Source: a virus
Virus record (IMG/VR): IMGVR_UViG_3300044630_004167
Coordinates: 1-51,154 of that record
Direction: 5' to 3' (one strand)
DNA length: 51,154 nt
The notes under the pieces were generated by a model. The model did not search any database and was not told the origin of the DNA. It saw only the letters and a program-made list of their open reading frames with translations. Positions 5,235 through 36,273 of the stretch are shown here, in pieces (position 1 is the stretch's first letter; each line of letters opens with the position of its first letter). The position numbers were made by a program, and so were the translations under genes.

Positions 5235-8200
5235 GTGAGTAAGAAAATTAATCTAATTAAGCAGTTTGACGACCACCTAGCAGTGGAGATGCCGGAAGAT
5301 GTTTCCGTATCCGAGCTAATCTTTAATCTAACTTTGGAGCAAAACTCTAAAGTAGACGAGATCCGCAGGGTCACCGAAGAACAATTAGAGACTGTTGCAA
5401 CTAGAGCATTGACTGCTTCAGCATCAGATAATCTTACTGTTGACGTACGCTATTTCAACGTTGTCCGCGAGCTTTCCCACTTCCTTAGTCTGGCTACAGA
5501 AGGTCCACGCCCAAACGGTGAAGACCGCAACACCGATCTACTACCTGAGTACCACCCAAGCTCTACTGCCGAATTGTCACTTGACCCAGCCATGTTCCGT
5601 ATTCGCCGTGGAGAGTGGTATTCAGCAGATCCTCGTATTGAAGATGAAGAGGCTCGCCCGTTAGTTGCAGCTGTATATGGCTCACACCCAATGGACGTTA
5701 AGTTTCAGCACGCTTACACAAGATTACTAGCTCTACCTGCAGGTGCAGTGCCTAGAGATATTATTGTAAGCCCGATGACTGCAAGCCTTTGGGGCAAAGT
5801 AAAAGGCTGGGCTGCAAATGTTTTCAAGGGTAAAAACTCTAGATACTGGCGTTCGCTACGTGCCAGCCAGCAGCTTCGTGATTCAAAGGGTCGCTGGATC
5901 GAGATGGGTGGCGGTGGAAAAGTAAACGTTCGATTCCCTAGAGGAAACGTACGCAGCGTTACAGGTAAAGTTGCTGGGTACTCCACAGAAGCTGGATTCA
6001 TCGACTTTGAAGTAAAAGGCATTCCTGGTCTAAAAGACGGTCTCTATAAGATCCCTGCAGCTGCTTTTGAAGGCGTTGCCGCCATTCTTCCAGCAGAAGC
6101 TGTTAAAGATCTCCCAATACAAAATGCAGTTCCAGACAACGATCTGATTCTAGACATTAAGGATTTAAAACCTACTGAATACCCAGAAGGCTGGGCTCCA
6201 TCTCCTTACACTGTAACTAACCCTGCTTTTGACGCAGAAGAAGTTAACGCAGATGCTCAGTACATGTCTGGTGACGGGTACAACGTTGTATACATCAAGA
6301 ACCCTAAAGCCAGAAGCAGCAACCCAAAGCGTACTCAGGCTTTCATCGATAAAGCCAAAGAGCGTTATGGCGACAAACTTCAAATTATTGGCGATGACGG
6401 CACTGAAAACTTGGATATGTCTAAGCCACTATATTTCTTGTGGGGCTCAAAGCGTAGTAAAGGAGCTACCCCTATTGGTATTGCTCAGGACTGGGCTGGT
6501 GTACAGAAGATTGCTGGAAATGAAGATGATCGTTTTGGTGACAAAGATAACCAAAGCCTTACTCCTGAAGAGCAACCTAGATCCGTTAAGCCAAAGGCTG
6601 AAGTAGGTCCGTCGCCTAAGGAAGAAACCCCTAGTGAAGAGTCTGACGAGACTGAAACATCTAAATACGACGATGGGTCAAATCCTGACGGTACTATGCC
6701 TGCAGGCTGGACTAAAATTGACAACAATACCTACCTATCTAAAAACCGTAGATACAAAGTAACCTACGGATATGGACAAGCTGACACAGAAATTGTTTAT
6801 GACCCGATCAGCGGGGAAGTGTCTTTTTACCCTGTAATGGCCGATAACGTCTACACTCTTACCGAAAGAGACGGCAACGCTGACTTTACTAAGGATGTTC
6901 CAGTACCGTTCTTCAACTGGTTACAAGTGCAAGAGCAAATAAATGCTATTGAAAAACTTGAAGCTCTAGATCCGCTATTCAACTCAAACATAGACAGAGT
7001 TCCACCTCAGGATAGAGAAAAGTATTCTGAATTTGATCCATCAGAAAGATTCGAATACGACTACTTCGGTCCTGATTCTAAGGTCATTACAAGAGCTAGT
7101 GCAATCGTTGCGGAATTTTTAGAGAGAGCTTTTCCAGGATCCTTTAAAGACGAGAAGTTTAACGAAAACGGTTTTTGGACTTCTAGACTAAAAACAGGAA
7201 CTTCAGCTAAAATATTTGATGCTCAGGATGGACTACAGACAGTTCAGATTTCCGAAGAAGGCGTTGGGATAATTAAGAGTATTCCAGTATATCCTGGCGA
7301 AGATCCAAACACTATTTTAAACGAGGCTCTTAGAGAGTACTTAGTCTTACCTGACGAGCTAGCCAACTTTAACCTAATGAACTCTTTTAAAGATTTTGAC
7401 ATTACCAATGGGAGAAATGCAAAAAAGATTCTAGACGGTATCCAGTCGACCATATACGAAATGTATATGGCAAAAGAAGCCGGCAGCGATAACAGAATTG
7501 AAGACGATCTATACGATCTAGGTAAGTTAGCTAAAGGACTAAAAAGCTTTATCTCAGATAAAGAAGCTAGAGACACAGACCTAGGCCCATCTCCTAAGGA
7601 AGAAGATGGCCGTGCCAACCCTAGAAATGCAGACGACATTCCAAACGAAAGGCAGATTGGACGTCTAGTTGCAATCTTAAACTCTCGTTTTATGGCAGAC
7701 AACCCTGAGATAGTTACTAAGGTTCGTGAAATTAAAAAGAACCCAGAAAACCACACAGTTAGAGAAGTTAACGAACTTGCATATCAGATCGAAAAAAACT
7801 TTAGAGAGCTCAGTAAATCAGAAAAAGAGCTAGCTACTTGGATTCAAAAAGATGCTCTAAATTGGGCACTAGACAATAAAAAGTGGCCTGAAGGTTTAGA
7901 AGAAGAATACAGAAAAAAGATCCAAGACAACACTCTAACTAGAGATGAAGCTTCCACAGCGTTTGATATTTCTAGAGCTGCACCTTTCAAGCCTAGAGTT
8001 GCACCTCCATTAACTGAAAAAGAAATAGCAGATATGGAAGAGGCAAGAGCTGCTGCTCAGACTGTAAACGGTAAGCCTGACTACTGGCTAGCTGATCAGC
8101 CTACAGAAAAGCCTAAGTATCTATCTACCAAGCTAGGTCCCGGAGAGTTTCCTCCTAGCGACGGTCAGCTAGTTGGAATCGAAAGATTCCTAGAAGACCG

Positions 8201-11200
8201 CGATATTCCAGAAGATGTTAAGCAAGAGTTCTTAGACACCTACCAGCAGATGAACTCTCGTGAGATCCGTGAGTGGTACTACAACTTTAAAGAATACCCG
8301 TTCAAAGAGCAGTACCGTCCAAAGAACAAGTATGGGTTGGTTGCTAAAGCGTTTGACGGTGCTAGCGATAGAATGCTTGCAAGCATCGAGCGTATCTTTG
8401 ATAAGGGTCTGGCAAGCGACCAGGAAATAGCCAATATTGTAAAGCTTATTCCTAACCTAAATATATATGAAGTAAGCACTCAGATTATTGGCGAACTTAA
8501 AGCCCGTGAAGATGCTCACGATAGCATTATTCTTCAAAAAGCTACTGCAGACGGTACCTCCATAAACGATCTAGATCTACTATCGCTTATTGGACGTTCA
8601 AACGCTCCTGACGGCTGGGAAAACTACAAGCCTACAGAAGAAGCTAGAACTGAGATCGCTGCTGACCAAGCAGACCAGGAAGAAGTAAAGAAGTTTGCTG
8701 GAAGAGAAGCACGTAAAAATGCTGCTCGCAGATCACGCTATGCTCTATCTCGTTTAATGGCTCATATTGCCAAGCGTAGAGATGAAGTTAATGCAGACGG
8801 CAAGAGGATTCTTGATGGTGCGTTAGAGGACGTTCAAGATTTAAAGCGTCTACTAGACCTACGTAACAAGTATGTAATCACCCCTGCTAAGGTTATGGAA
8901 CGTCTTCAGACCATCATGAAGGGTCTAAATGACTCGGATGATGCTCATACTTATGGCCGTATCCGTAAGCCTAATCCAAAGACTATGGATGTCTTAAACA
9001 CCCTTTCTGGCATGGTAGACGAGGTTATTGGCCGTGACGGTTACCACAATGGGCCTTACGAGTATGACCCTGTAGCTGAAGACGAGCCTGCAGAAAGCAC
9101 ATCCGCTACTAGCTTTGAACCTAACTCTGGAATGTCTTCAGAGATTCCGTCTGCAAACGATCCAGTTCCTGGACTTATTGACTACTCTAACCACCCAAAC
9201 AGGCCTAGACCCCCTAGAAGAGTTAAACCTAAAGCTTTCTGGGGAGTTGTTCGTAACTGGCTATCTGGAGCAAAGACTTGGGACGATGTTGACGAGGCTC
9301 TAGAGGGTAAGACCCTACACTATGTAGACATAGAAACTACGGGAGTATTTACTCCTCTACAGCCAGATATTAAAAACGATCCGATTCAGATTGCTATTAA
9401 TAAAGTTGTAGACGGACAGATTGTTGACACATTTGTAAGCTACGTAAACCCTGGATCTCCTTTGAGTGCATGGGCTATGGCAAACCTAAAAGATGATAAA
9501 GGAAACCCGATCACTCAGGAGTGGATAGCGAGTCTTCCAAGCAAGAGTGAAGTTATAGCTAAAGTCTTAGAGTTCTTAGGTCCAGATGCTGTATTAGCTG
9601 GGCACAATGTTGCTGCTTTTGACTTAGAAGTTATCAACAGAACGCTAAGAGAAGCTGGATTAGACGAGTACGTTCCTGCTGGAATAATCGACACTCTTGG
9701 ACTAGCTGACTACATCTATAACCCATTCAGTAAGACTAACCCAAGTGGGCCATATAAAATGGGTGACTTTGGGCCAAGCGGTTCTACCTCCCTAGAGGCT
9801 TTGGGAAGATATGAAGGAATTTCTTACGAAGGACTTCACAACTCAGTCAATGACCTAGACCTAAACATTAAACTTTTAAGTCAGATGATTAAAAGAGCTA
9901 AATCAAATACCGATCTAATTAAAGACAATGTTTTTGATCTTGATTTATCAGACAATGATTACGATGCAAAACTTGCTAAATACGAGCCAGCATATGAAGC
10001 TTATATTCAACGTGCTTTAAAGTTTATAGCCGATAAAGCTATTGAAGCAGCGGCTAGAGGGTCTGAAACAAGTGTTCAAGATCTGGAGAATCAAGCAAAC
10101 AATGCTCGTAACTCTACATCTTCAGAAGGTACTCCTGCAAGTGACCGTCCTACTTTCTCAAGTTTGTTCCCTCCAACAGACGATGGTGAGCAGCCTATCA
10201 CTGTAAGTAACGTTGTTGCAGATCCTGTAAATAGAATCAAACCTCCTAGCCCTAAGCAGCTGAAGAGCGTTGAAAGACGTCTACTAGACCCTAGAGGATT
10301 AGTTTCAGCTGAAAGAGCAGCTGAGATATGGGACCTACTGCCTAACGTCAACTCCAATGAAATTGGTGATCTAGTTAGGGAGATGGATAGTTTAGAGCTT
10401 GACTATGCCATTGCTAATGATCTAGAAGTAGATAGTCTTCGAGTCCCTATTGGGTATGACCTAGACAAGTTGAATGCTTACCTAGATAGAAAATTCCCTA
10501 ACCGTAGAAACAACACTGGCCCATCTCCTAAAGAAGAAACTCCTTTGATTGAGTCAGAAGGAAACCCAAGAGGAAATATTTCTCGTCTAATATATTCAAT
10601 GGTGGAATTGGAAGATGCACTTAAAACAGCTGAGACTCCAAGTGAAAAGCGTAATATAGCTTCGGCTATTGAAAGAGTTGCAGGTGCTATCGATCAGATC
10701 AGTACTAGACCGTCTCCTAAAGAAGAACGCCCAGCGGATAGAAAAAATAAAGCAGATCTTGCTGCTAACAAAATGGATATCTCCTTTATCGGAAAAGATT
10801 TTACTGACGAGCAGAGAGATGCCATTGAAGCTGGCTTACGCGGCTGGTCCGTTGTCATCAAAGCTTTAGCTGGTACAGGTAAGACCACTACTCTAATTGG
10901 ACTTGCAAAAGCTATTCTGAACTATTACCCTCAAAAAAGAATTCTAGCGATGGCTTTCAACAAAGCTATCAAGTCTGAGCTTGAGACTAAGTTCCCTGGA
11001 AATACTGAAGTAAGAACTATGGACTCTCTTGCGTTCCAAGCTGGAGCGAACAGTAAACTATCTAAAAAGTTTAGCGCTATGCGAAAGCAGTCTGACAATA
11101 ACAATAGACCAATTAGCGGACTTGCAGATCTAGCTGACTACTTTAAAGTTCCGGATGAGGTAGAGCTTGTTAACGGAGAAAGAATCTCTAAGTTTTTGGC

Positions 11201-15290: not shown

Positions 15291-15315
15291 CTAAGTCTTT
15301 AGTTGTATCTTTTGC

Positions 15316-15351
15316 TATACTATACTTAGACTTATTAAGACTTTTGAGGAG
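15316..15351 (+). promoter_or_regulatory. candidate promoter and ribosome binding site between A and B
   Basis: TATACTATACT (15316-15326) contains two overlapping good -10 hexamers in the 69-nt gap after protein A. No strong -35 is visible. GAGGAG at 15346-15351 is the Shine-Dalgarno of the short gene starting at 15360. The promoter could drive the small genes and protein B separately from the upstream operon. Confidence 0.4.
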
Positions 15352-15359
15352 ATCCCCCT

Positions 15360-15506
15360 ATGGAAAATTATCTTAACCCTGATGACTACACTCCTGAAGA
15401 TGAAGAATATTGGACTGCCATTTCTTTTCCAAACCCTGATCCAGACTTCCTGTATGATAATGAGAGCACAGAAAATACTGAGCTAAAAAACACACCGTCA
15501 GAGTAG
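15360..15506 (+). CDS. 48-residue acidic protein
   Basis: ATG at 15360, preceded by GAGGAG with 8-nt spacing, and a TAG stop at 15504-15506. The translated protein (MENYLNPDDYTPEDEEYW...) is very acidic, rich in Asp, Glu, Pro and Tyr, with no membrane segment. It sits between the two giant genes, 17 nt before the next small gene. The strong ribosome binding site and tight spacing support a real gene. I recognise no family. Confidence 0.6.
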   Translation: MENYLNPDDYTPEDEEYWTAISFPNPDPDFLYDNESTENTELKNTPSE

Positions 15507-15523
15507 AGACATAGGATATATAA

Positions 15524-15727
15524 ATGGACGAAAATAAAAAGTCTAATCCAGAACCTATGCTGACCGTCAGCTATTATGAAGACGACAAGCACGTTATGGA
15601 AGACGTACCTTACTCCTCTCTAACTATCGACAGATTAGTTGATCTAGCCATAAACGGATCTCTAGATGCTCGTAAAGAGTTAGAGCGTAGATCTGGTGTA
15701 GACGTCTTTAAGGATGTTGAAAACTAG
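15524..15727 (+). CDS. 67-residue small protein ahead of B
   Basis: 67 residues with AGGA 7 nt before the ATG. The stop codon overlaps the GTG start of protein B by one base (TAGTG), so translation of B is probably coupled to it. The C-terminal half (SLTIDRLVDLAINGSLDARKELERRSG) looks helical, and the N-terminal half (TVSYYEDDKHVMEDVPY) beta-like. No family is recognised. Position suggests it accompanies or regulates production of B. Confidence 0.65.
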   Translation: MDENKKSNPEPMLTVSYYEDDKHVMEDVPYSSLTIDRLVDLAINGSLDARKELERRSGVDVFKDVEN

Positions 15728-27700: not shown

Positions 27701-30700
27701 ACCGTAGACGTGGTCTAGCCACAGCACTTCTTAATGTTGCTAGAAAGTATTCTAAAGAGCCTATTGTTCATAGCACTTCACTATCAAATGCTGGATTTGC
27801 ATTTTCTAATAGTGTAGATAGGAATCCTCAAGACCACACGAGCGAAAAGTCTATAGCATGGCAAGAAGAGAACTCTAACACTGGCCCATCTCCTAAAGAA
27901 GAAACTCCAGTAGGCAATTTCTTACCCGAGCCTTTTGATCCTAGAGATAAAAAAATTGACTTAGATACAATCTACAACTATGATTACACTCAAATGCCTG
28001 ACGGTACTCCATTCAATGATGCTGATCAAGAGCAGATGGACATTATATCTAGAAGAATAGAAAACACTCTTAAAGCTAATAACGGAGACGAGACTTCATA
28101 TCCAGTTCTGAATCTAAAAAACTTTAGAAGAACTTTATATCAACAAATAATTGCTAAGCCAACCGAAGGCTCTTCTACTACAAGAGAGAGCATTCTTAAT
28201 CAAGTAGAGTTTAGCGATAAGCCAGCCGTTAAGTATTTTGATCAAGCTAGCAAAAAAGAGTATACAAGATACGTAGACACGTTTACCGATAAGTACGGTA
28301 GAAAATACTACATAGTAACTAACATAGACGAAAGTTCTGGACGTCAGACTGTAGTAGCTTATGACGAGAAAAACTTTGAAGGAATGCCTCTACCGGAGGA
28401 CTATGTAAGAAACGATCAGCCAGTCTCCGGTATGAGTGATGTTGGGGCACTGCAAACTTATATCTATAGAGATCCATCTGTTACAGAAATCCAAAGTGCA
28501 ATGGTTAAAGATAACTACCAAAGAAGAGGTCTAGCAACGGCTATGGTTGCTATCTTAGAAAAGAGAATTGGCCTTCCGGTAGTACACTCTGACAATCTTT
28601 CTAAAATGGGTTTTGCTTTTTCAAACAGTATTGATCCTGGAAAGCCAGAACTTCACAATAATGAAGAATCTATTAAGATACAAAGCGAGACCGGTCCATC
28701 GCCTAAGGAAGAGATCCCAGAGGATGACGGAGGAGATGAGGTAGACACTAATCGTACTCCAGGTAATATCCTCGCAGCTCAGCTAAAAGTTCTAGCAGAT
28801 GGGCTAGGAAAAGATTTTTCTGAGAATGCTGACTATAAGGATATATCGGTTGACCCAGAGAATCTACCAGAATCACTAGACATTTGGAAAAATCTACAGT
28901 TCATGGCACCGATGTCACAGGATCTAAAAATAGTTGCAGCTGAACTAATTTCCGCTGAAATGAAATCTTCTGCAAAGAACATCCTCAGGTCACTAGCCTT
29001 AGCAAATAATGAAGAATTACTGTACATTGGTGAAGAAGTATATGATCTATTAGCGGATAATGAAGATGAGTCTGACGATTACGACATTATTATGAAAGCT
29101 TTTGGGACAGATCTAAACAATCTAACTAGGGACTCTCTAATCCTTTCTTATGATGCAGAAGACGTGACTATGTATGTAAGCACGGTAAATGCTTTTATAG
29201 ATGACGATGAAGATAGACCTGACTCATATTTCACTCCAGAAAGACTTAAAAAGCAAATAAGTAAGTATGCAAATAAAAATGATATGACTATATTGTCTAG
29301 CAATAGCCCTGACATAAGTGAATCTATGAGATACGTTGGATCGGTTCTTTTTATTAAACAGTGGTCTCAGACTTCAAACAATGAGACACTTGCCGATGCC
29401 CTACAAAAAGCAGCCGTTGAAGCTTTTAATATGAAAGATGGAAGCTGGGCAACTTCAACATCATATATAGAAAACGAGCCAGACGAAAAACTAAAAGAAG
29501 TGATGAGAGAAACTAGTAAAAGTTATAAAGAAAAACTTGACTATCTTTATGACATGAACTCTCAAGTGTATATGGACTTTATTAAAAGTATGTACAAAGT
29601 TACTCAGGCGTATTTAAAAGACCTAGGTATTAAATACGTAAGAGTGTATAGAGGTACTGGCGTGACTGAAGCTAGAGATGTACAAGGAGATTCTGACTTT
29701 AAGTCCTCTGGTGTAGGTATGGTAAATGTAATGCAAAGACCTATGTCATCATGGTCTTTTGACGAAGAAACCGCTTTAGGATTTGCTGCAAATAGTGGAG
29801 ATAATGATGTCAGAGATCCAATGTTTGTAGCAACTTTAGTTCCAGCGGGTCAGGTGCTAGGCTTCCCTGGAACCGGTTTTGGTTCTTTTGAAGAAGGAGA
29901 GCTTGTCCTTCTTGGCGGGTTCCCGAGAAAAGTTATGGCAGCTGTTCATAAAAATAATTCTCAGGAGAAAAAATCCACAGGAAATTGGCTGTCCGACGCT
30001 GTGGTTTCAAATGATCCTGTCTCAGAAAGAGACTTCTTCCTTAGAAAAGCTTTGCCTCAGATAGACGAACACTTTACTAATTTAAGTGAGTCGGATACTC
30101 AAGATCTTCTTAACCGCAACTCGGGGATATCTGACTCTACTGGCCCGTCACCTAAGGAAGAGGAAGTTTCTGATGATCAAAACCAACCGTACAACTTAGA
30201 CAATAGTAGTAGAAATGCAAACTGGGTGAAGTTTGTCCCGTCTCCTAAAGAAGAGGTCACGGACGCTATTGCTAAAGCGTACAAAGATTTCTTAGATAAA
30301 AAGCACCCTAACTTAGAGTACCAACCTTTTGACGTGAATACTCAGATAGGTATAGGTCCAGATAACGACATCATCGGCCTAGTTCGTCCTGAAGCCTTGA
30401 AAAAGATTCAAGGCAACTTAGCTGCAGAGCCAACTACTGTAAACAGTATTGAACAAGATTATAGAAGTGGAGAGGGACTATACGAGCCAGTACTAGTAGG
30501 GTATAACCCGGATACTGGGTATGCTACAGTACTGGAAGGTAACCACAGAGTACAGGCAGCTATCAACGCTGGCGAAGAATTTATACCTACAGTTCTAGTG
30601 ACTTGGGGTATATCTGCTAGAGATGAAGACGATTCCGAGGACTTTACCCCCGGCATAGTAGAAAAAACTCCTGGTAACCCTTTCAACACTGACGTCAGCT

Positions 30701-33700
30701 CAAAAACAACAAAAGAAGTAAACCCTTACTTCGTGTTCCCTGACTCTGACATTTACATCCCGGAGGATCTGGGACCATCTCCTAAAGAAGAGAAGCCATC
30801 TAAAAAGCTTCTTAAAGAACCGTTTGACCCTACAGACTTCACCATTGATCTAGAAAAGTTCTATAATTTTGATTACAGCAAGATGCCTGACGGTACACCG
30901 TTCGATGTATATAGGCAACAACAAATGGATATTCTTACAGATGCAATTAACAATGAAACTAATAACTTTGAAAGAAAACTACGTATTGCTGAAAGAAGAC
31001 GTATCTATCAAGGGTACTTTGCTAAACCAAACTTAAAGTCCAGCACTAATATTGAAACGATTAAAGATCAGGTAGGACTTCTGGATGACAATACCTCTAG
31101 AATGAACTACACTGGGGCTGGTAAGCCTTACGCAGATCTACCATCTGAGTATAAACAAAGTACTCAGTACGTTGACGAATTTACTGACAAGTACGGAAGA
31201 CAGTACTGGGCAGTTACTAAGGTGGTATCTGGACTAGGAATGTCAAACGTAAAGTTTTACGATAAGAGTGAGAACTCTTTACAAGATATTAAAGATACTT
31301 CAGAAAATATAAGTCCTATATCTATGTTAGATGTCTTTAATAACAAAATTAGCATGGTCCACACTTCAGATAGATACTTAAGAAGAGGTCTAGCTACTGC
31401 AGCTCTTTACTTAGCAAGAGAGCGTTCTGGAAAAGAAGTTCAGCATTCAGAAATGTTGACCTCTTTTGGTAGAGCATTCTCTCTTTCAGTTGACCCTAAC
31501 CCTGGTCTTCATAAAAATGACGAATCTAAAGCTTTGTTGCTAGCTAATGAGTCTGGACCTTCCCCTAAAGAAGAAGCACCGGCTGGAGGGTTCTTGCCGG
31601 AGCCTTTCAACCCTAATGATCGTACTCTTGATCTAGATAGTATCTACAACTATGACTACACCAAACTTCCAGATGGAACTCCATTCAACGCCAAGCAGCA
31701 AAAAGCAATGGATCACGAGAATAAAATTCTTGAAGAAGCCATAGCCTCTGGAGACGAAGCAAAAATACGTGCAGCTAAAATTGCTAGAAGATATACATAT
31801 AATACATTTATAACTGTAGCTAACCCAGACTCCAAAACAAACACTGAAACTATAGCTAATCAGATTACCCCTGGTAAAACTAAACCTAAAAAGTTTACTG
31901 GATTTGTTCGTTACACAGATAATTTTACAGATAAATACGGTAGAAAATATATAATTTTCACTGACATAAGTACTGATGATAGCTCAGACAACGCTGTAAT
32001 TGTAACAGCACACGATCTTGAAAGTCAATTCTTAGAGCCACTCTTTACACCTGAAGGTATGGAAAATGTGGATCGTTTTGGCGGAAAATATCTGCACATA
32101 TCTTCGTTAAAGGTTAATGATAGTGACCGAAAAGATTTAAATGGAAGTGCTGAAATTGGCATTATAGGGACTGATGATGCTTATAGACGTAGAGGTCTTG
32201 CAACAGCACTATTGTATTTAGCTCGTAAGCACTACAGCAAGCCTATTAATCACTCAAGCACTCTTACCATGTATGGTAAAGCTTTTTCTAACTCTGTAGA
32301 TGCTGGAAAACCAGAAGTACACGATTCTATAGAGTCTCAGCAACTACAACGCGATATTCTTAAAAAGAAAGGTCTTCCTGTAGAAGAACCTGAGCTTGAT
32401 GGCGATGAAATCGATTACGGGCCTTCTCCTAAAGAAGAAACTCCTTCAGGGCAACCTACAATTGTTACAAATAAGTATCTTGAAGTAATTCCTCTTAATA
32501 ATGCTTACAGAGATAAGAATGACCCAGACCTAGACATTACAGAGTGGATGACTAAAGGCACTAACATATATGGAATAGGTAATGGTGGGAACCCGCTAGG
32601 CTACGTTAGAACTGAAAAACTTGCCACAATGAAGGGCAATCTTGCAGACATGACGAGTAGTGTTGATTCTATATCTCAGGATTTGGAAGACGGAACAGGA
32701 TATCTAGAGCCAGTACTAGTTTGGTACAACCCTATTACTGGAAGATCCTTTATTGCAGAAGGAAACCACAGAGTTGAAGCCGCGCGTCTGACTGGGAGAG
32801 AATACGTCCCTGTTATTGTTGGCGTTAGTACTGTAGATTTTAAAAATCCTTCAAAAGTGGAGAAGGCTGGTGGAGTTGGGGACACGGTTTTAAATAAAGA
32901 TGGAAGCTTAGGAAAATTTAGAAACGTAAAAGACGGTGCCATCATAAACCCGTACCACTTGTTTAACGATGAGGATCTTCTATATCCTAGAGTCAACTTA
33001 GATCCAAATGATGTTCCTGGATTCACAGACGTGCTTAAAATACAGTCCGAGCTTTTAGACGAACGTATGGTTGAAAACCAAGAAACTGGGATCAATGACA
33101 TTGCTAAGTGGTACGATCCGAACACATTTGATGTTGATAGTCCGATTGCCTTCATGGGTGAAACTCCTGAAAAACTAAAAGACATCACTGCTAGAAACAT
33201 AGGCGATAATATGATGTCTTCTGTTGAAGACATGCTAGCAGCGGTAAACTACGGTATATGGATTGGCAATTTACTGCGTAATAAGTTTAATCCAATGGGT
33301 CTAGATAGTGAAAAAATTGCTAAAAAAGCTCTAGACACTAAATCAGATAAGTTAAGTGCTGACTCTATTGTACTATTTATAGACGAATCTGAGCACTCCT
33401 CATCCCAGGGAATAGTAATAAGAACTTTAGGAGACCTTCTAGATGAAATGGATCCAGATGATGAAGAAACTTATGGGACAAATTGGAATAACGCTGATTA
33501 TAAAACTCTTTTAAAAGATTACTATGCTAATGAAGATTTTAAAGCAATTTTCTTTGATAAGCCAAAAGATGTATTAGCATTTAAAGCAAAAGTAGCTTCA
33601 ATGCTTGTTGCACAGTGGGCGGAAACTTCTAACGGTAATGATATGCAGTCTCATGCTTTGCAAATGGCTGCTGTTGACGCATTTAAAATGCCTGATGGCT

Positions 33701-36273
33701 CGTGGGCAGAGTGGAAGTTCCCTAAAGGCTCATACGGGGATCAGATTAAAGAAAACGCAGAGTACCACTACTTAACCTATGGAACGGTACTTAAAGATTT
33801 CTTAAAAACTATGTATAACCTAACTCAGGATAGATTTAAAAACTACGGAGTAAAGTACCTAACACTTTACAGAGGTACCGGAGTAGACGAAGAATCTCTA
33901 AAGATAGATACCGGTATTGAATACAATGGCATAGGAGACGTCGAGGTGTTACAAAGACCTATGTCAGCTTGGACTTGGCTTTACGGCACTGCTCTTAACT
34001 TTACTAACAGTAGATTGGCAGAAAGAGCCGGAATGTTTATGGGTACTATTGTTCCGGTTGAGCAAGTACTCTCTATTCCTGGAACCGGTTTTGGTTGCTT
34101 TGAAGAAGCCGAGGTAGTTCTACTGGCAGGTAAACAGAGGTTAGTACGAGCTGTTACTAGTGATAGTTCTGATCCCGATCTAAATCAAAAAGCATTTATT
34201 AATCAAAACAAGGATCAAGTAATTTCTTACTTACTGGACCAACTTCCTAAAGATAGAAATGCCTTTGACAACCTCATTGAGTTTAATAAGAGCGACTTTG
34301 GCTCTACTGGCCCGTCGCCTAAGGAAGAAGAGCCACTAAACGTTGACAACAGCATAGAAAACTCCGACTGGGTTATTTCTGAGTTTGCAAAAAAGAAGGA
34401 TGCTACAGAACCTGTAGATAAGCAAACTATTCTAGCTGCAATAAATGACATACAATCCATCGCAGACGTAGGCCTTCCTGTAGAGTTTGAGCCCCCAGCA
34501 CGTAGCGGTGGTACATCCCCGAGCAAGAGGACAACTAAGCGTGGAACTGTTGTAAGAGGTACTCCAATGCTTTCAAAAATTGAAACAGACGCTGGAGACA
34601 TTGAGATTTCGTATGAACAAGTTGCTATTCAAAACTCTAAAGAATTAGCTGCTAAACCTACAGAAAAAGCTATAGAAGTTAAGAATAAAATTATAAGTTT
34701 AGGAAATAAAATTCTAGGCCCAGCTAAAAAAGCTGTAGATAGAAGAATGATTGATGAAGGTCTTCTACCGGAGGGGGTAGATTTAGACCAGCACAGGTTA
34801 GATCTTGCAGATGATATTGCAGCTAGAACTGAAATAATTAAAGAAAAAAATCTTGCTTTACTTAATGCTATTGAAGACATAAATAGAAATGCTTTTAAAA
34901 AGCTTCCTTACGAAGTTCAAGAAGAGATTTATCAAATACTTAGAGAAAATCCAGCTATGTACACTATTGACGATTTTTTCAAGGCAAATGATAATTTAAA
35001 CATGGCTAGAACAGATGGTGAAGGTTTAGAACAGCTCTATAAACAAGCTACTATGGAGGTAGACAGCTATAGGGCGATAAAACTATTCTCTGGTAGAAAA
35101 ATCTGGCTGGAGCGGAAAAAAGCCAAAGGCAGAGGATATGAAAAAGTACTTGAAGATTATCCAGATTTCGTAGGTACCCTTGACGGGACAAATGGCGCAG
35201 ATAGACTTGAAAATATTCTACTTGTTACAGCTTTAAATAAAGGTTTTATAGACTTATCTGAAGTTAAAAAAATGTCAGACGAACTGAGATCTTTAAGAGA
35301 GTCTGCTACTGAAGTTCAAAATCCTAGACAGTTTGTTAATAAATATCACCGATATCTGGGCGAAGAGGTTAAAAAGCAGCTCGAAAGTCTAGGTATGGAG
35401 TTTGGCTCGGTAGATATGTCTAATGTTATTGGAATGGTAAAACCTATAGCTAAATACACTACCGATCAGTATAGATACGGATATCTTAGCGCTGACGACT
35501 ACAAAAGCTTTATGAATCAGGTAACTCCTAGCATAAACTCGCTAGATCCAAAAATCTTAGAAGAACTTAAAAAAGCTATGGATACCCTTCCTAAGTCATT
35601 CTTAATGTCTATGAAAAACTACTACGAATCAATTTCTAAAAAACTTGGAATTAGACCTTCTGAAGCTAGGGCTCATTTCTTCACCGCGTCAAACGGAAAT
35701 GGGATAGTTAGAGGAGACAAAAAAGATGACTTCTTACACGAGTTTGCGCACTTCTTTCAAGGAATAAATCCAGAACTTATTGCTATAGAACATGCATTTA
35801 CGTATGATAGGGTTCGAAACGAAGACGGTACATTAAAGCCTATAATGGAAGTCCCTTATACAAACGATGTTAAGGATAACTCTGATACTTTTTCTGGTGC
35901 AAATGTGGTGGAGCCTTACATTGTAAAACAGTATGAAACTAACACCGCAAAAAGATTGGGCGCACGTAAGTACACTGAAGTGCTCACCATGGGAATTCAA
36001 GATCTTTTTGGAGACGAATCTGCTGGACGCTCCGTTACTCCTACTGGAGTTACTATTGTAACGGGGAAAGGTTCTAGGAGAACGTACTACTCGGAACCTC
36101 ATATGGACATTGCCACTGGAATTTGGTACACTGATAAAACTATGACTAACAAAATAGATCTTAAAAAGATAACTGGAATTTCAGGACTAGACAAATCTAG
36201 CCCGACTGACTGGGACTTTAAAGCACTGACTATTGGACTACTTTTAGCACTAGCTGATTTGGAAGATAACTAA
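15727..36273 (+). CDS. giant polyvalent protein B: exonuclease, metallopeptidases, ADP-ribosyltransferases, GNATs and ParB-like domains
   Basis: 6848 residues in one uninterrupted 20.5-kb frame. GTG start, with AAGGA about 12 nt upstream. The N-terminus has YTDAERR...FRDKYGRW (residues 21-42), a signature shared with A and C. Thirteen GPSPKEE-type linkers divide it. Order of recognisable parts: DnaQ exonuclease (297-523), zincin (719-939), SH3-like GD modules, an unrecognised tandem domain pair (1866-2438), acidic and Thr/Pro linkers, ART1 (3214-3696), GNAT1, GNAT2, ART2, ParB1, GNAT3, GNAT4, ParB2, ART3 (ending at 6194), and a C-terminal segment with HEFAH. Large parts (about 960-1865 and 2440-3206) are unrecognised. 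The gene sits between structural genes in the late operon, so delivery with the virion is likely. It ends in TAATG overlapping the next start. Confidence 0.85.
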   Translation: MDFEYIKPLLADASGTGDGEYTDAERRADVASQFRDKYGRWIEMGRGIKGKVRLGKNRGTDAGRTARIVGKFINATPDGKFARVLVDPSDPNFGGKIVHIRNDNAEEILATLDPEYLKKRGIQLGKNTEGFEVGDEGIQDEDTLTIEDPTPQDLEDSKADLPDPGDYKQEASTLTQAAVAGRDLATGNIVYDQGSDQYGKVTQVRTLANGTKQIFIQFQNGRRAIMNIAADHQITAWVGAREDGQQAPATGPSPKEENSVAALGIDLQTATMDANGARLPTPGAFTGAFQRIVGGAKNWADVAKRLFNQVVTYFDFETTGISNYDGDGIKNSPIQLGAVKVKNGKIIGRFNVYMNPGSKLSEWSADNLKRDVVDENGNVVLDENGKPQSTLVTPEWLAEQMSPAEALKLFLEFIGPKALLGGQNVPFDLEILQRMADEAGVKLDIAGTIDSKDLASLLPTYDPEKGVDGPKQIADKETGRMRPSSSLGPVANFLGFEPANWHSADGDAEDSYNLVRAIIDRAAKEDNQDMRLLNFPEMQRLYKERMAAFKNSISQNNPVTQKQLDALNELANSDNSVVAEEARKAIAEATTRGKAAEVLARLDNDISRPNNNTGPSPKEERGGPGLSNDVLDVLARLRRRVGLKEKKVKKLKNYVPMGFGRMSGWDQYPQEFKDIYDSAADLDQFVKMFWNLRRPGRPVDETMYAIAAAIHRSMDAIDNGRGILTYRGIRIEFDSNSDIDGRLLDELKGYLDTAVKFGFKLPTTIIFGKAGALTFDKRKLGFNPETGKVCLGESDVDENGGLRLILWDQLHNLEGDNDMVQFMGTDPKTGQDRYGTLGGERISLLLSTFSHELGHLFNREKHGKMTGSPVWAELKKIFWGSDSAPFKRFNIVPKSSDIDFDERMADLFMGAFIAFHNKEDQVLPSVAHFWKIAIEPYIDAEPAYWTDNAKRLNKKAKSVKDTAKRPKDIAVGDVLYDKDGNLHGKVVRVSKDKNGNWHYWVEGKDFKPGDVFPTGLDEYIVHGEGIVYLSKDGVHFVPDNAPDFPEKVPKTLDDSNSSEIKVEDIKPGMIYNSPEGPAIVVNIIKQGVNSDPRKNRGAKERVIVYVDPITGDIKHAVVPTGDLVRVMSAPKTDSSEPEGGSGSSEPEDPNLAAIRNWLKIAINIGMVIRPGEDLDERDRFISDLADGVIEEIKKLGLKDYAALAEYLKENLSYIGKGNPWYQVRDYVREFLDPGYGERQAKALNSIKELLKERIIFEDESGEKTDPAGGILDDILRPYLAEAADTNYEELLDLLDKNLKSGEIKHVQKLEGNSFRGNWEEVVKAVQDIISSNLGKQQPVSEESAKPTEQGENFDADGNPIKVGDLVDVIDEYGQKKTIRIYKYFVQKGYDYKINEFLSYEEGYEILGGYIVNVLNSEIGYPLNKSKLSPKNGSQGDKKDREKIRNNKFSSVKNLMYNSFIKKHRKENPNMDIEVVKKLAERDVATALEELKKLGVLDYDIFNGEFDEFTNHMFWTKTEDGKYDTPRKFNSIEDAVSAAKEYIEKKNASSEPETGTEEEEAEATATETTSESEITTDDPIGRGKIDPKGYGTNEGYVRMTHPTPDFPAETDEKNLIEKGFEIEEQDNDTRPSPKEEESEDDEEGVIPSEDPAKFAVGKKTTIIWHNKDFSSPGGRIKITYTRKADGSLDKYYKEIQWINWDGKISGDGYGPGDVLEFERDQDEQKTFRMAFEFATKALAKRNKEYNNNELPGQFPHPFKKVGNDHIWRVVKDAKTGKLKAGRDTKKDMEKKPPFGAVISHKDGKWTANILDPKGNVVATFEVDGDANDQSALENIMNQSYAELAKKYREINAPTTTPAARPAGKATDGHNFPLPDDVEMFKIRNGGLTLYGINLKADVDIFGETSASIRDGLRFGAVIEYIEGKGHWYVGLRDANSSLDQERGIKDLSLSETYKTIKGDIDDPKAWEEAVKEARKFVSDAIARHGGKNIRYGYEHRPIKSLDDVRVNDYIIFRTSYPPSVNFSDTDRPEEYISSIIGKVLSIGKDKEGNRTFKIQGKDGKIKNLTDKKLDYVGGAVRFSDDDPTIEVSTLEIVKKRVAKREMKELRYFIGMDIDKDPNKSEDSLEKIYKAVEDKIGPDLSEDHIFVQSLKKALSKKMYDKSNTKGYLTEEEIYEIADKAIEKYSTGKKSTTETEDDSEGITGAHTHPLPDDVEIFPAHGPAGGIEGDSYIYYAINGEGFRHEADYNDIGVKDGLRFGAQIHYEPAYESIGRKGQWKIELLSKNWHEDYYRGRLIEDRNAVVLGDINDPEAWKKAVEEARRMIANAVAKTGGENVPYTSEYIALESLDQLQAGDYLMNSAFFPPDFRWAGTKSQSLSTNFYAKILSVGKDKDGNRIFEVERDAVKDSKPYTTVFTDEEFIKEFGIDGGIARYSDENPNVGAPAETGTETGTEELTEEQLQANKDAWTEVGLLYRKYLAAKRGKNMKREAKRLKQELSTFPVVVLHDKLSDYKDILSNTRNTSTDENERRAITKRVAELLDAMKQLNILVRKGVDEGAGKPTDALKFNFDNLLEEIDFKVGTTTEEVTEEEEEEEEETAEETTTTEEPAKNVIETAGGVLDFSGLSPMQLGKINKHLDSKVVWEGESMTYRELYKRFAIGKRKFQVRKDTNYVNGKPVHSWGPVEYRLFIDEKRGTIKVPKMIFDAFKPTSSDPSLNEDRTSAVIEAEWAKEESGKAGASTTPTTPKGFGPVALNSNIAKKYPAMNVDKDWTIYGPDGYALGMVTKKETAGSVSKITVRDLQGKETTYNYNNLVKILALSPKDKKDIEKAEKDKAKKEDTTTPATPATSTETPTTESKDDSVTKVVKKEINDAYNVNLKLSVDEKLELWKSLRDRGLITVKNIMDVVPGDYVLAIRNLDYPKPFNWDKWGAKGYYEQEFRKVVSIENEPQRGKLRPILDDGWVSHSSNPAKADVLVLTPDAFESGGTPPEPETSDSIEFIPSSKIRGLQAGDLFYIYEDGNGYAKQYIVGSNGKSVYETVNGELPGGAEENVRRPDDLDSIAERVATGSGEKVYRGLIPTDENGNPLSARQHKARIESAATSAPEAKPAEEKPEVNPAVGTEYNKDLENDLAVFRNALEDIIENFRNQPGADKDVYKAATKEIYNELKKLNSLHNESENSGEDLEKIREVYDQKMRDIGDIQAAKVRDLGPSPKEEEVFAQSAADLQNAIIQEAVRLGEIEDRYDETLRDTLFRVANSHSIGEALKQVAAKRIYRYMPDVKFDGLLKAITTNTDALDLLHAGQTLNVMYSTMLSPTEWVYTEPRSSQKDSAWVYNAFNADLSDIKDGTELLVQPINNSMIDGLSIFTVDSNLIDAVKKSKGDAFGPAESIESKDIIDYMKDKFYLRVFSSFNQDDVDHLKQGMIGYLIKSWAISSNDNNLKMHAMQHLASEIFAMDSKATAGWNFVENENESYIANMRRAGRAPAGVNTLDDLQDYLDQRIVAEANEHKEVYTKFLYAMYNSTQDALKEAGIDGMILYRGTGVSEFKDSDKLPLPFSLFGFGTRDLRDPKFDDFVNAPQEGYVYHRPMSSWSTKFEIANTFSSRYGSNTPLIAGVKIPAERIFALPGSGFGCYNEAEVVVLGGELTPATYVVPRDLSLMGRNEFLETVKNKVGPKTILTTEKENGNFVEVLASSEDFETGPSPKEEGPSINLDSSSENADWIKQVSWDLPIDMGEFLSMFSTRDQLSYFMTEPVAVGMPEEMSRNLWPAADEHFKKIDEMPKPEEPRYLPEPFDPQDPNLDLEAFYNFDYSKNPDGSPFTRSQAGDMAYAELAVLREIHNGTEEDIKNAIRHRLDTYLKVTAKPDPKATTTVESVEDQIEGDFDLDSPVEEYPNPFNASTSIKRYLNYYTDKYGRRYALLTDIFQNNTGNLYVTAYDTTGKTPEQVQEDFIDSKNYLTPDLHIAFIGTTYATPDPNDKNYESKRYIDLVTTWPEYRRRGLATALLNVARKYSKEPIVHSTSLSNAGFAFSNSVDRNPQDHTSEKSIAWQEENSNTGPSPKEETPVGNFLPEPFDPRDKKIDLDTIYNYDYTQMPDGTPFNDADQEQMDIISRRIENTLKANNGDETSYPVLNLKNFRRTLYQQIIAKPTEGSSTTRESILNQVEFSDKPAVKYFDQASKKEYTRYVDTFTDKYGRKYYIVTNIDESSGRQTVVAYDEKNFEGMPLPEDYVRNDQPVSGMSDVGALQTYIYRDPSVTEIQSAMVKDNYQRRGLATAMVAILEKRIGLPVVHSDNLSKMGFAFSNSIDPGKPELHNNEESIKIQSETGPSPKEEIPEDDGGDEVDTNRTPGNILAAQLKVLADGLGKDFSENADYKDISVDPENLPESLDIWKNLQFMAPMSQDLKIVAAELISAEMKSSAKNILRSLALANNEELLYIGEEVYDLLADNEDESDDYDIIMKAFGTDLNNLTRDSLILSYDAEDVTMYVSTVNAFIDDDEDRPDSYFTPERLKKQISKYANKNDMTILSSNSPDISESMRYVGSVLFIKQWSQTSNNETLADALQKAAVEAFNMKDGSWATSTSYIENEPDEKLKEVMRETSKSYKEKLDYLYDMNSQVYMDFIKSMYKVTQAYLKDLGIKYVRVYRGTGVTEARDVQGDSDFKSSGVGMVNVMQRPMSSWSFDEETALGFAANSGDNDVRDPMFVATLVPAGQVLGFPGTGFGSFEEGELVLLGGFPRKVMAAVHKNNSQEKKSTGNWLSDAVVSNDPVSERDFFLRKALPQIDEHFTNLSESDTQDLLNRNSGISDSTGPSPKEEEVSDDQNQPYNLDNSSRNANWVKFVPSPKEEVTDAIAKAYKDFLDKKHPNLEYQPFDVNTQIGIGPDNDIIGLVRPEALKKIQGNLAAEPTTVNSIEQDYRSGEGLYEPVLVGYNPDTGYATVLEGNHRVQAAINAGEEFIPTVLVTWGISARDEDDSEDFTPGIVEKTPGNPFNTDVSSKTTKEVNPYFVFPDSDIYIPEDLGPSPKEEKPSKKLLKEPFDPTDFTIDLEKFYNFDYSKMPDGTPFDVYRQQQMDILTDAINNETNNFERKLRIAERRRIYQGYFAKPNLKSSTNIETIKDQVGLLDDNTSRMNYTGAGKPYADLPSEYKQSTQYVDEFTDKYGRQYWAVTKVVSGLGMSNVKFYDKSENSLQDIKDTSENISPISMLDVFNNKISMVHTSDRYLRRGLATAALYLARERSGKEVQHSEMLTSFGRAFSLSVDPNPGLHKNDESKALLLANESGPSPKEEAPAGGFLPEPFNPNDRTLDLDSIYNYDYTKLPDGTPFNAKQQKAMDHENKILEEAIASGDEAKIRAAKIARRYTYNTFITVANPDSKTNTETIANQITPGKTKPKKFTGFVRYTDNFTDKYGRKYIIFTDISTDDSSDNAVIVTAHDLESQFLEPLFTPEGMENVDRFGGKYLHISSLKVNDSDRKDLNGSAEIGIIGTDDAYRRRGLATALLYLARKHYSKPINHSSTLTMYGKAFSNSVDAGKPEVHDSIESQQLQRDILKKKGLPVEEPELDGDEIDYGPSPKEETPSGQPTIVTNKYLEVIPLNNAYRDKNDPDLDITEWMTKGTNIYGIGNGGNPLGYVRTEKLATMKGNLADMTSSVDSISQDLEDGTGYLEPVLVWYNPITGRSFIAEGNHRVEAARLTGREYVPVIVGVSTVDFKNPSKVEKAGGVGDTVLNKDGSLGKFRNVKDGAIINPYHLFNDEDLLYPRVNLDPNDVPGFTDVLKIQSELLDERMVENQETGINDIAKWYDPNTFDVDSPIAFMGETPEKLKDITARNIGDNMMSSVEDMLAAVNYGIWIGNLLRNKFNPMGLDSEKIAKKALDTKSDKLSADSIVLFIDESEHSSSQGIVIRTLGDLLDEMDPDDEETYGTNWNNADYKTLLKDYYANEDFKAIFFDKPKDVLAFKAKVASMLVAQWAETSNGNDMQSHALQMAAVDAFKMPDGSWAEWKFPKGSYGDQIKENAEYHYLTYGTVLKDFLKTMYNLTQDRFKNYGVKYLTLYRGTGVDEESLKIDTGIEYNGIGDVEVLQRPMSAWTWLYGTALNFTNSRLAERAGMFMGTIVPVEQVLSIPGTGFGCFEEAEVVLLAGKQRLVRAVTSDSSDPDLNQKAFINQNKDQVISYLLDQLPKDRNAFDNLIEFNKSDFGSTGPSPKEEEPLNVDNSIENSDWVISEFAKKKDATEPVDKQTILAAINDIQSIADVGLPVEFEPPARSGGTSPSKRTTKRGTVVRGTPMLSKIETDAGDIEISYEQVAIQNSKELAAKPTEKAIEVKNKIISLGNKILGPAKKAVDRRMIDEGLLPEGVDLDQHRLDLADDIAARTEIIKEKNLALLNAIEDINRNAFKKLPYEVQEEIYQILRENPAMYTIDDFFKANDNLNMARTDGEGLEQLYKQATMEVDSYRAIKLFSGRKIWLERKKAKGRGYEKVLEDYPDFVGTLDGTNGADRLENILLVTALNKGFIDLSEVKKMSDELRSLRESATEVQNPRQFVNKYHRYLGEEVKKQLESLGMEFGSVDMSNVIGMVKPIAKYTTDQYRYGYLSADDYKSFMNQVTPSINSLDPKILEELKKAMDTLPKSFLMSMKNYYESISKKLGIRPSEARAHFFTASNGNGIVRGDKKDDFLHEFAHFFQGINPELIAIEHAFTYDRVRNEDGTLKPIMEVPYTNDVKDNSDTFSGANVVEPYIVKQYETNTAKRLGARKYTEVLTMGIQDLFGDESAGRSVTPTGVTIVTGKGSRRTYYSEPHMDIATGIWYTDKTMTNKIDLKKITGISGLDKSSPTDWDFKALTIGLLLALADLEDN
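16615..17295 (+). other. Protein B domain: second DnaQ-like exonuclease
   Basis: Residues 297-523. DFETTG (Asp315, Glu317), GGQNVPFDLEIL (motif II) and HSADGDAEDS (His502, Asp507) are all present. Its flanks resemble the protein A domain: both have a YxNPGSxLSxW segment after motif I. The two are probably paralogues. It follows the first linker at 16477. Confidence 0.85.
17881..18543 (+). other. Protein B domain: zinc metallopeptidase-like
   Basis: Residues 719-939. HELGH gives His851, Glu852 and His855, and FDERMADLF at 900-908 is a good third-ligand segment, as in gluzincin-like peptidases. It follows the second linker (17566). It could process host proteins or the giant proteins themselves. 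Confidence 0.7.
21322..21984 (+). other. Protein B tandem domain, copy 1 (unrecognised)
   Basis: Residues 1866-2086. It shares with copy 2 an HxxPLPDDVE opening, a DGLRFGA core, DIDDPKAWEEAVKEAR-type helices, a 'LDxxxxxDY' barrel entry and VLSIGKDKEGNR. The pair is an internal duplication. No family is recognised; the second half looks like a small beta barrel. Confidence 0.6.
22327..23040 (+). other. Protein B tandem domain, copy 2 (unrecognised)
   Basis: Residues 2201-2438. It parallels copy 1 throughout (HPLPDDVEIF, KDGLRFGAQI, DINDPEAWKKAVEEAR, LDQLQAGDYL, ILSVGKDKDGNR, ending in ARYSDENP). An unrelated helical linker of about 115 residues separates the two copies. Function is unknown. 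Confidence 0.6.
25366..26814 (+). other. Protein B domain: ADP-ribosyltransferase-like ART1
   Basis: Residues 3214-3696. A helical N-terminal part is followed by an R-S-E class core: ILYRGTG (Arg3536), RPMSSWS (Ser3586-Ser3589) and NEAEVVVLGG (Glu3632 and Glu3634, an ExE pair). Mono-ADP-ribosyltransferases of this class use NAD+ to modify protein arginines or other targets. T4 Alt is the known example of a virion-delivered ART. Confidence 0.8.
26836..27882 (+). other. Protein B domain: GNAT-like acetyltransferase 1
   Basis: Residues 3704-4052. It begins with the NLDxSxxNxxW element, then LPEPFDPQDPNLDL and PDGSPF, then YTDKYGRRY, then YRRRGLATALL (3992-4002), a GNAT motif A (R-x-x-G-x-A) for acetyl-CoA. 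It closes with HSTSLSNAGFAFSNSVD. The substrate is unknown. Confidence 0.65.
27904..28692 (+). other. Protein B domain: GNAT-like acetyltransferase 2
   Basis: Residues 4060-4322. It has the same plan as GNAT 1: LPEPFDPRD, PDGTPF, TDKYGRKY, QRRGLATAM (4265-4273) and HSDNLSKMGFAFSNSID. Separated from GNAT 1 only by a GPSPKEE linker. Confidence 0.65.
28714..30141 (+). other. Protein B domain: ADP-ribosyltransferase-like ART2
   Basis: Residues 4330-4805. RVYRGTG (Arg4642), RPMSSWS (Ser4674-Ser4677) and FEEGELVLLGG (Glu4723, Glu4725) form the R-S-E triad. A helical region of about 300 residues precedes the core, as in ART1 and ART3. Confidence 0.8.
30256..30771 (+). other. Protein B domain: ParB/Srx-like 1
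   Basis: Residues 4844-5015. GLVRPEALKKIQGN, then a YEPVLVGYNPDTG strand pair, then LEGNHRVQAAINAG (Gly4938-Arg4941) matches the phosphate-binding GxHR region of the ParB N-terminal fold. Some members are CTPases or nucleases, others small-molecule kinases. Catalytic status is unclear. Confidence 0.7.
30793..31554 (+). other. Protein B domain: GNAT-like acetyltransferase 3
   Basis: Residues 5023-5276. LKEPFDPTDFTIDLE, PDGTPF, FTDKYGRQY, LRRGLATAALYLAR (from 5218) and HSEMLTSFGRAFSLSVD. Same architecture as the other three copies. Confidence 0.65.
31576..32418 (+). other. Protein B domain: GNAT-like acetyltransferase 4
   Basis: Residues 5284-5564. LPEPFNPNDRTLDLD, PDGTPF, FTDKYGRKY, YRRRGLATALLYLAR (from 5486) and HSSTLTMYGKAFSNSVD. 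The closest-looking match to GNAT 1 around motif A. Confidence 0.65.
32440..33000 (+). other. Protein B domain: ParB/Srx-like 2
   Basis: Residues 5572-5758. GYVRTEKLATMKGN, YLEPVLVWYNPITG, and AEGNHRVEAARLTG (Gly5679-Arg5682). Clearly paralogous to ParB-like 1. Here no GPSPKEE linker separates it from the following ART3 region. Confidence 0.7.
33001..34308 (+). other. Protein B domain: ADP-ribosyltransferase-like ART3
   Basis: Residues 5759-6194. TLYRGTG (Arg6049), RPMSAWT (Ser6080, with Thr6083 in place of the last Ser) and FEEAEVVLL (Glu6127, Glu6129). The triad is still complete, with a slightly altered second motif. Confidence 0.75.
34330..36270 (+). other. Protein B C-terminal segment with HEFAH metallopeptidase motif
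   Basis: Residues 6202-6848. It opens with the third NLDxSxxNxxW-type element (LNVDNSIENSDW). A long helical stretch follows. Near the end, FLHEFAHFFQG gives His6671, Glu6672 and His6675, a zincin-like site. A possible third ligand is in RKYTEVLTMG (Glu6751). The helical part resembles internal head proteins only in general character; no family is recognised. Confidence 0.55.

Follow-up and report, generated by a model that had tools for sequence, protein, structure and literature searches.

A seven-residue tag between the modules of two giant polyvalent phage proteins and a candidate metallopeptidase reader

In phages and conjugative elements, polyvalent proteins join unrelated effectors in one chain (ArdC-N, a zincin metallopeptidase or MPTase, helicase, GNAT and ParB-like domains), are encoded beside portal and head genes (Iyer et al. 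2017, PMC5512222), and are presumed to travel in the head and to enter the host along with the DNA. That work also proposed that zincins process the polyvalent chain, so neither the proteins nor their proposed processing by zincins is new. The passages of it that were searched, however, describe no inter-module tag shared between modules, no uniformity of such a tag within a phage and no concerted switch of tag and peptidase, and neither 'linker' nor 'short motif' nor 'conserved motif' appears in its text. Among the comparable systems, phage P1 packages the internal head defence proteins DdrB, DarA and DarB. According to PMC5512222, DdrB, which bears a C-terminal MPTase, is processed to 76 kDa before packaging; the processing site of DarA has not been determined (PMC9024508). 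In prohead processing, as by SPN3US gp245 and T4 gp21, one phage protease cuts several internal head proteins at a shared short motif, but this motif is three residues long, and what is cleaved off is mostly an N-terminal propeptide (PMC10052503). The virion RNA polymerase of N4 is likewise giant and has a zincin domain, yet it is packaged unprocessed (PMC5512222).

Here we describe two adjacent giant phage proteins whose modules are separated by a uniform tag, which is seven residues long and internal, unlike the prohead-protease motif. We know of no repeated tag in DdrB, DarA or DarB, and a literature search covering few subscription titles found no paper describing inter-module tags that are uniform, that differ by lineage or that switch in concert with a peptidase.

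The giant-gene block and its tags

The window, meaning the whole stretch of DNA analysed, is a 51,154-base IMG/VR virus contig with an actinophage-type head region in the order portal, Dps-like protein, A, B, protein C, major capsid protein and tail genes. The main features are as follows.

2249–4045, + strand: portal protein, left edge of the giant-gene block (PHROG 776 portal, E 1.7e-101)
5235–15290, + strand: giant polyvalent protein A, 3351 aa, 7 tag copies (Pfam, tag scan)
15727–36273, + strand: giant polyvalent protein B, 6848 aa, 13 tag copies (Pfam/PHROG, HExxH, tag scan)
36759–41270, + strand: protein C, 1503 aa, head maturation protease fusion (PHROG 18402/3244)
41414–43456, + strand: major capsid protein (PHROG 777)

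Directly after the portal gene, 4063–5220 encodes a fusion of a Dps/ferritin-like domain with a DUF5824-like region, possibly a DNA-binding head protein. Pfam analysis of A revealed a DnaQ/RNase_T exonuclease (PF00929), a UvrD-like helicase (PF00580), ArdC-N (PF08401) and an MPTase-PolyVal zincin (PF18818). B contains an RNase_T exonuclease, GNAT and ParB-like modules by Pfam/PHROG, HExxH modules by motif, and ART-like modules by eye; the last had been named in the sequence-only reading that preceded this analysis, and they have no profile-library match in the window. Across the C-terminal half of B (25366–34308), GNAT-like, ART-like and ParB-like modules are repeated, and their copy number varies among close relatives. 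An AlphaFold model of the GNAT-GNAT-ParB-ART stretch has a mean pLDDT of 41 and is usable for local helices only. A and B each unite several unrelated catalytic and DNA-binding domains, and their genes lie between those of the portal and the head protease and capsid, in a layout shared by relatives. By these features both fit the definition of polyvalent proteins, and their gene position is consistent with packaging and injection. Among named phages, the closest is DSL-LC01 (OQ999401; capsid 64%), an Actinomycetia phage assembled from a metagenome. It shares the portal, giant ORF, protease and capsid layout with the window, as do cultured Microbacterium, Arthrobacter and Gordonia relatives; all of them, however, are tagless, with Pro/Ala/Glu-rich linkers and giant ORFs that lack HExxH. 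In DSL-LC01 (L042, 14960–19879), three consecutive ORFs with the annotation capsid maturation protease stand in place of the single protein C of the window. A prophage search for the host found no locus encoding protein C among genome contigs.

A six-frame scan of the window for [GRV]PS[PA]K[EQ]E found 20 copies, seven in A and 13 in B, and none elsewhere. They comprise 16 GPSPKEE, two RPSPKEE, one VPSPKEE and one GPSAKQE, exactly as the sequence-only reading had counted them. All are internal, and the termini of A and B carry no tag. The sites below were located by scan and alignment, together with the sources given in brackets.

6606–6626, + strand: tag 1 (A), GPSPKEE; the sister clade has PSQNRE or PSQRRE there
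7584–7604, + strand: tag 2 (A), GPSPKEE
10518–10538, + strand: tag 3 (A), GPSPKEE; the next tag begins 56 residues past its end
10707–10727, + strand: tag 4 (A), RPSPKEE, immediately N-terminal to the UvrD helicase module (Pfam)
12798–12818, + strand: tag 5 (A), variant GPSAKQE, window only
13020–13040, + strand: tag 6 (A), GPSPKEE
14025–14045, + strand: tag 7 (A), GPSPKEE, immediately N-terminal to ArdC-N/zincin (Pfam)
16477–16497, + strand: tag 8 (B), GPSPKEE
17566–17586, + strand: tag 9 (B), GPSPKEE
20611–20631, + strand: tag 10 (B), RPSPKEE
25345–25365, + strand: tag 11 (B), GPSPKEE
26815–26835, + strand: tag 12 (B), GPSPKEE, AGC serine codon
27883–27903, + strand: tag 13 (B), GPSPKEE, GNAT modules on either side, window-specific (Pfam/PHROG)
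28693–28713, + strand: tag 14 (B), GPSPKEE
30142–30162, + strand: tag 15 (B), GPSPKEE, window-specific
30235–30255, + strand: tag 16 (B), VPSPKEE, 24 residues past tag 15, window-specific
30772–30792, + strand: tag 17 (B), GPSPKEE, C-terminal to a ParB-like module, window-specific (Pfam/PHROG)
31555–31575, + strand: tag 18 (B), GPSPKEE, GNAT-like modules on both sides
32419–32439, + strand: tag 19 (B), GPSPKEE, N-terminal to a ParB-like module (Pfam/PHROG)
34309–34329, + strand: tag 20 (B), GPSPKEE, final tag, N-terminal to the C-terminal module

For the PSPK core, 0.17 copies are expected by chance in A and B versus 20 counted (ln p = -78; the count includes one unrelated PPSPKQL), and block shuffles of the two proteins give ln p of about -14 to -18. 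The codon variation seen earlier, including the AGC serine at 26815, is confirmed, and as many as 14 DNA spellings occur among the 16 exact copies. Their codon identity is 0.52 versus a composition null of 0.43 (95% range 0.38–0.49); in sister genomes it falls inside the null range, and the DNA flanking one copy matches that flanking another at 30% of positions, near chance. The diverse spelling, the near-chance flanks and a codon identity little above the null support selection acting mainly on the peptide and not on the DNA, as first suggested, to which a DNA-level process such as module duplication may have made a minor contribution in the window. Within one tag type, conservation of the tags is 0.85–1.00 versus 0.39–0.88 for their flanks; across tag types it drops to 0.42–0.55 and no longer exceeds that of the flanks.

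The proposal that tags mark module borders holds in part. None of the Pfam/PHROG matches (exonuclease, UvrD helicase, ArdC-N, zincin, GNAT, ParB) contains a copy, but the borders within 20632–25344 of B (1,571 residues) are tag-free and have T/E/P-rich low-complexity linkers instead, between which small beta domains are apparently repeated. Behind each ART-like module, a short NLDxSxxNADW[IV]-like element follows the tag (26836–26880, 30163–30234 and 34330–34380); the second of these is a piece of 24 residues that ends at another tag.

Two readings of the tag were rejected on its sequence. Internal translation starts, suggested by the resemblance of AARGARGAR to a Shine-Dalgarno sequence, would require a nearby start codon, and an in-frame ATG, GTG or TTG lies within 18 nt in only 2 of the 20 copies; moreover, the sister tag PSQNRE has no comparable purine run. 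Ribosome skipping of the 2A type at G-P is disfavoured as NPGP is absent and the GFxQxxG and VEESS tags of other lineages contain no G-P.

Concerted replacement of the tag in relatives

Relatives were gathered by capsid and by protein C. In five genomes (G002, G005, G006, G007 and G018) with capsids 86–88% identical to that of the window, A and B keep the window order as far as the contigs extend, and the linkers read PSQNRE. At 15 orthologous junctions, PSPKEE of the window aligns with PSQNRE of these genomes or with variants such as PNQNRE, PAQNRE, PSQLRE and PSQFRI; the junction at B 3698 aligns loosely, and there nothing but TSQNRE is present in G002. The outgroup G009 has PSPK[EQK]E at those junctions that it possesses, and G003 mixes PSPKEE with an intermediate PSQKEE. 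The portal tree (SH-aLRT 96) places the window as sister to the PSQNRE clade, as do A and B, with identities of the window to this clade versus G009 of 71% versus 62% in A and 63% versus 44% in B. Given an outgroup that keeps a PSPK-type tag and a window that is sister to the PSQNRE clade, PSPKEE is the older state, and all junctions switched in concert on one branch. The same replacement at 15 junctions needs one shared reader, and there is good support for recognition of the tag by a partner that co-evolves with it.

In long sister genomes (113–137 kb) PSQNRE occurs in the A/B block only, and across IMG/VR DNA arrays of GPSPKEE are found in the window, G009 and G003 only, the remaining matches being single. 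G007 (L085), G006 (L091) and G009 (L089) carry an extra tag-bounded HEIGH/HEIAH module just N-terminal to the C-terminal module of B; the window has neither this module nor its closing tag.

A motif scan of the polyvalent blocks lying between portal and protein C revealed further tags, each repeated throughout one phage. GFxQxxG occurs in 23 copies in G011 and 18 in G012, with GFDQAPG in G029 and GLDQ in G054; VEESS is found in G022 and G031; and PxVDxK (G010), PEQEM (G034) and NMA[VI]P (G047) lie closer to the noise limit. Some of the G010 and G022 tags coincide with junctions of the window. Many lineages, including all cultured ones examined, are tag-free, and in DSL-LC01, Zooman, Pumpernickel, Atuin, Sixama and Phendrix the scan found low-complexity linkers only and no specific tag. 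In the GFxQxxG phages G011 (L062) and G012 (L063), the last giant ORF ends in tandem ArdC/MPTase-PolyVal copies, and Tc-38 (kinetoplastid p38) domains are also present; tandem MPTase copies occur in five genomes (G011, G012, G029, G054 and G047), all of them tagged, G047 weakly.

A zincin-like module as candidate reader

Four reader candidates were compared in the window family. Two HExxH-bearing regions of B stand out.

34330–36270, + strand: C-terminal HExxH (zincin-like) module of B, candidate processing peptidase (similarity by tag type, branch burst)
18277–18291, + strand: HELGH of the internal zincin-like module of B (motif; second-fastest region on the switch branch)

The C-terminal module contains HEFAH at 35737–35751 and a glutamate at 35788 (module residue 494), both invariant in seven orthologues and in L226, a contig with a third tag, NIAPDAEG, and the same C-terminal module family. 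HExxH with a conserved downstream glutamate is the layout described for polyvalent zincins in PMC5512222, and helices are predicted at low confidence for residues 472–486 and 488–502. The AlphaFold (AF2) model has a mean pLDDT of 46 and is usable for local helices only. Searches of Pfam, NCBIfam and PDB with the module gave no useful zincin-family or fold match, and the module was found in none of 50,697 named-phage records.

Comparison of 200-residue blocks of A and B showed that the window is nearer to G006, of the PSQNRE clade, than to G009 in all comparable blocks except those of the C-terminal module. There the order is reversed (G009 0.39/0.54, G006 0.27/0.42), apart from the block at which the module starts, which is level (0.35/0.34). 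On the tag-switch branch, change in the module reaches 0.225 per residue, where the mean is 0.043 (SD 0.039); of 176 blocks, the seven that changed most are all found in it, and its estimated stem is about 1.03 versus at most 0.47 in other blocks. Thus, among about 10,000 residues in A and B, this module, which was chosen post hoc as one of about 21 large blocks, evolved by far the fastest on that branch. The next two blocks belong to B 605–914, the second-fastest region, which holds the other HExxH motif of B. In a module tree rooted with L226, the window joins G009 and G003 (99/97), and a clade of window and PSQNRE genomes is rejected (AU p 0.017, a result that long branches could affect), whereas a control tree of the exonuclease module recovers this clade with modest support (72/83). 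L226 was found by a search with the C-terminal module and played no part in forming the hypothesis. The shared change of tag and C-terminal module makes this module the candidate reader.

Across genomes, at least two HExxH motifs occur in the block of all 11 tagged genomes versus 4 of 32 untagged ones (Fisher p 2e-7, not tree-corrected); with tree correction there are only four independent pairs and the association is not significant. It persists in blocks of at least 3500 residues (p 1.5e-4), so that block size alone does not explain it. Exceptions without a detectable tag are G019 and G030, whose HExxH module is related, and G041 and G045, which have other zincins. Two other candidates fared worse. 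The ArdC zincin of A changed in 2 of 120 columns on the switch branch, among the lowest values. The prohead protease is disfavoured, as the sequence-only reading had argued for the capsid protease: the capsid N-terminal region (EAPADRQPV...ITAGADIPGY) is conserved for every tag type, and protein C and capsid carry no tag, show no change that tracks it and had no burst on the switch branch (stems 0.05 and 0.00).

What the tag may do

We propose that the tag is a short recognition site for one self-encoded partner, most likely the C-terminal HExxH module of B acting as an active metallopeptidase. This peptidase would cut at or beside each tag, in cis on B and in trans on A, so that each module would become a polypeptide of its own, whether prior to packaging, inside the head or once injected. 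A change in its specificity, or its replacement, would lead to the rewriting of every site, and tags would hence be lineage-specific yet uniform within one phage. We put the chances that the tag is the cleavage site of such a self-encoded enzyme at about even. Against cleavage, freed fragments of 24 and 56 residues are unlikely to be independent effectors, and the N4 polymerase, which likewise bears a zincin, is packaged uncut (PMC5512222). The sequence-only reading had offered a processing site or a dedicated linker: the concerted switch at 15 junctions strengthens a specific role, though the tag may also be a linker dedicated to threading modules separately. Homologues with unrelated linkers, which that reading had expected to speak against specific processing, do exist, yet they argue for a recognised site, because one uniform new sequence occupies all junctions and a zincin-like module changed simultaneously.

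A serious rival is that the tag is bound and never cut. A co-evolving partner, be it a scaffold, a packaging adaptor, a chaperone or the C-terminal module of B as a non-peptidase, would dock on it for head loading or to hold an unfolded ejection state. Docking accounts for peptide-level selection and the concerted switch equally well as cleavage, the spacings of 24 and 56 residues fit binding better than release, and the capsid-localisation signal of P1 DarB can bring a foreign protein into the head (PMC9024508). We nevertheless consider it rather unlikely: the module that changes with the tag retains its invariant HExxH and glutamate, and the window-specific extra modules bring their own tags. 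Moreover, the tags lie between modules and are never terminal, unlike the packaging signal of T4, which is terminal.

Less probable still is cleavage of the tag by another protease: that of the prohead, in protein C, one of the host, or one that the phage encodes beyond the window. Prohead proteases do cut short motifs, for instance SPN3US gp245 after A-X-E (PMC10052503), the tag is glutamate-rich, and a change of host could cause a concerted switch; but the constant capsid N-terminal region and the burst-free stems of protein C and capsid count against the first of these enzymes, and VEESS, GFxQxxG and PSQNRE have no common motif. A physical spacer, in which a flexible linker is favoured with no specific reader, seems very improbable, for although the Pro/Gly/charged composition and the tagless PEA- or T/E-rich linkers of other relatives suit it, a spacer needs no exact sequence and gives no reason to switch all junctions to one new one. 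Slightest is the chance that the linkers are alike through duplication or recombination at linker DNA and the peptide is functionless: B does consist of repeated GNAT, ParB-like and ART-like modules and tag codon identity in the window is slightly above the null, but DNA-level homogenisation conflicts with the many spellings of the exact copies, the chance-level flanks and the null-like codon use of the sister clade, and the 15 orthologous replacements would be 15 separate conversions of 18–21 bases between unlike flanks.

Polyvalent-protein processing has been open since these proteins were named, and the window supplies the sites, a protease candidate and a switch of specificity that occurred naturally, which makes the question approachable with peptides and two recombinant modules. 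In its full form, to which we give somewhat less than an even chance, the model describes a polyprotein DNA phage: about 10,000 residues of injected effectors would be made as two chains with about 20 near-identical sites and cut by a self-encoded metallopeptidase, tag and peptidase being replaced together as a lineage-specific code. Such a code might avoid cross-cutting in co-infection or follow a host change. If true, linker tags would delimit the modules of giant phage proteins by sequence alone, orthogonal protease and site pairs would be useful as tools, and tailed phages would have a polyprotein strategy that recalls that of RNA viruses.
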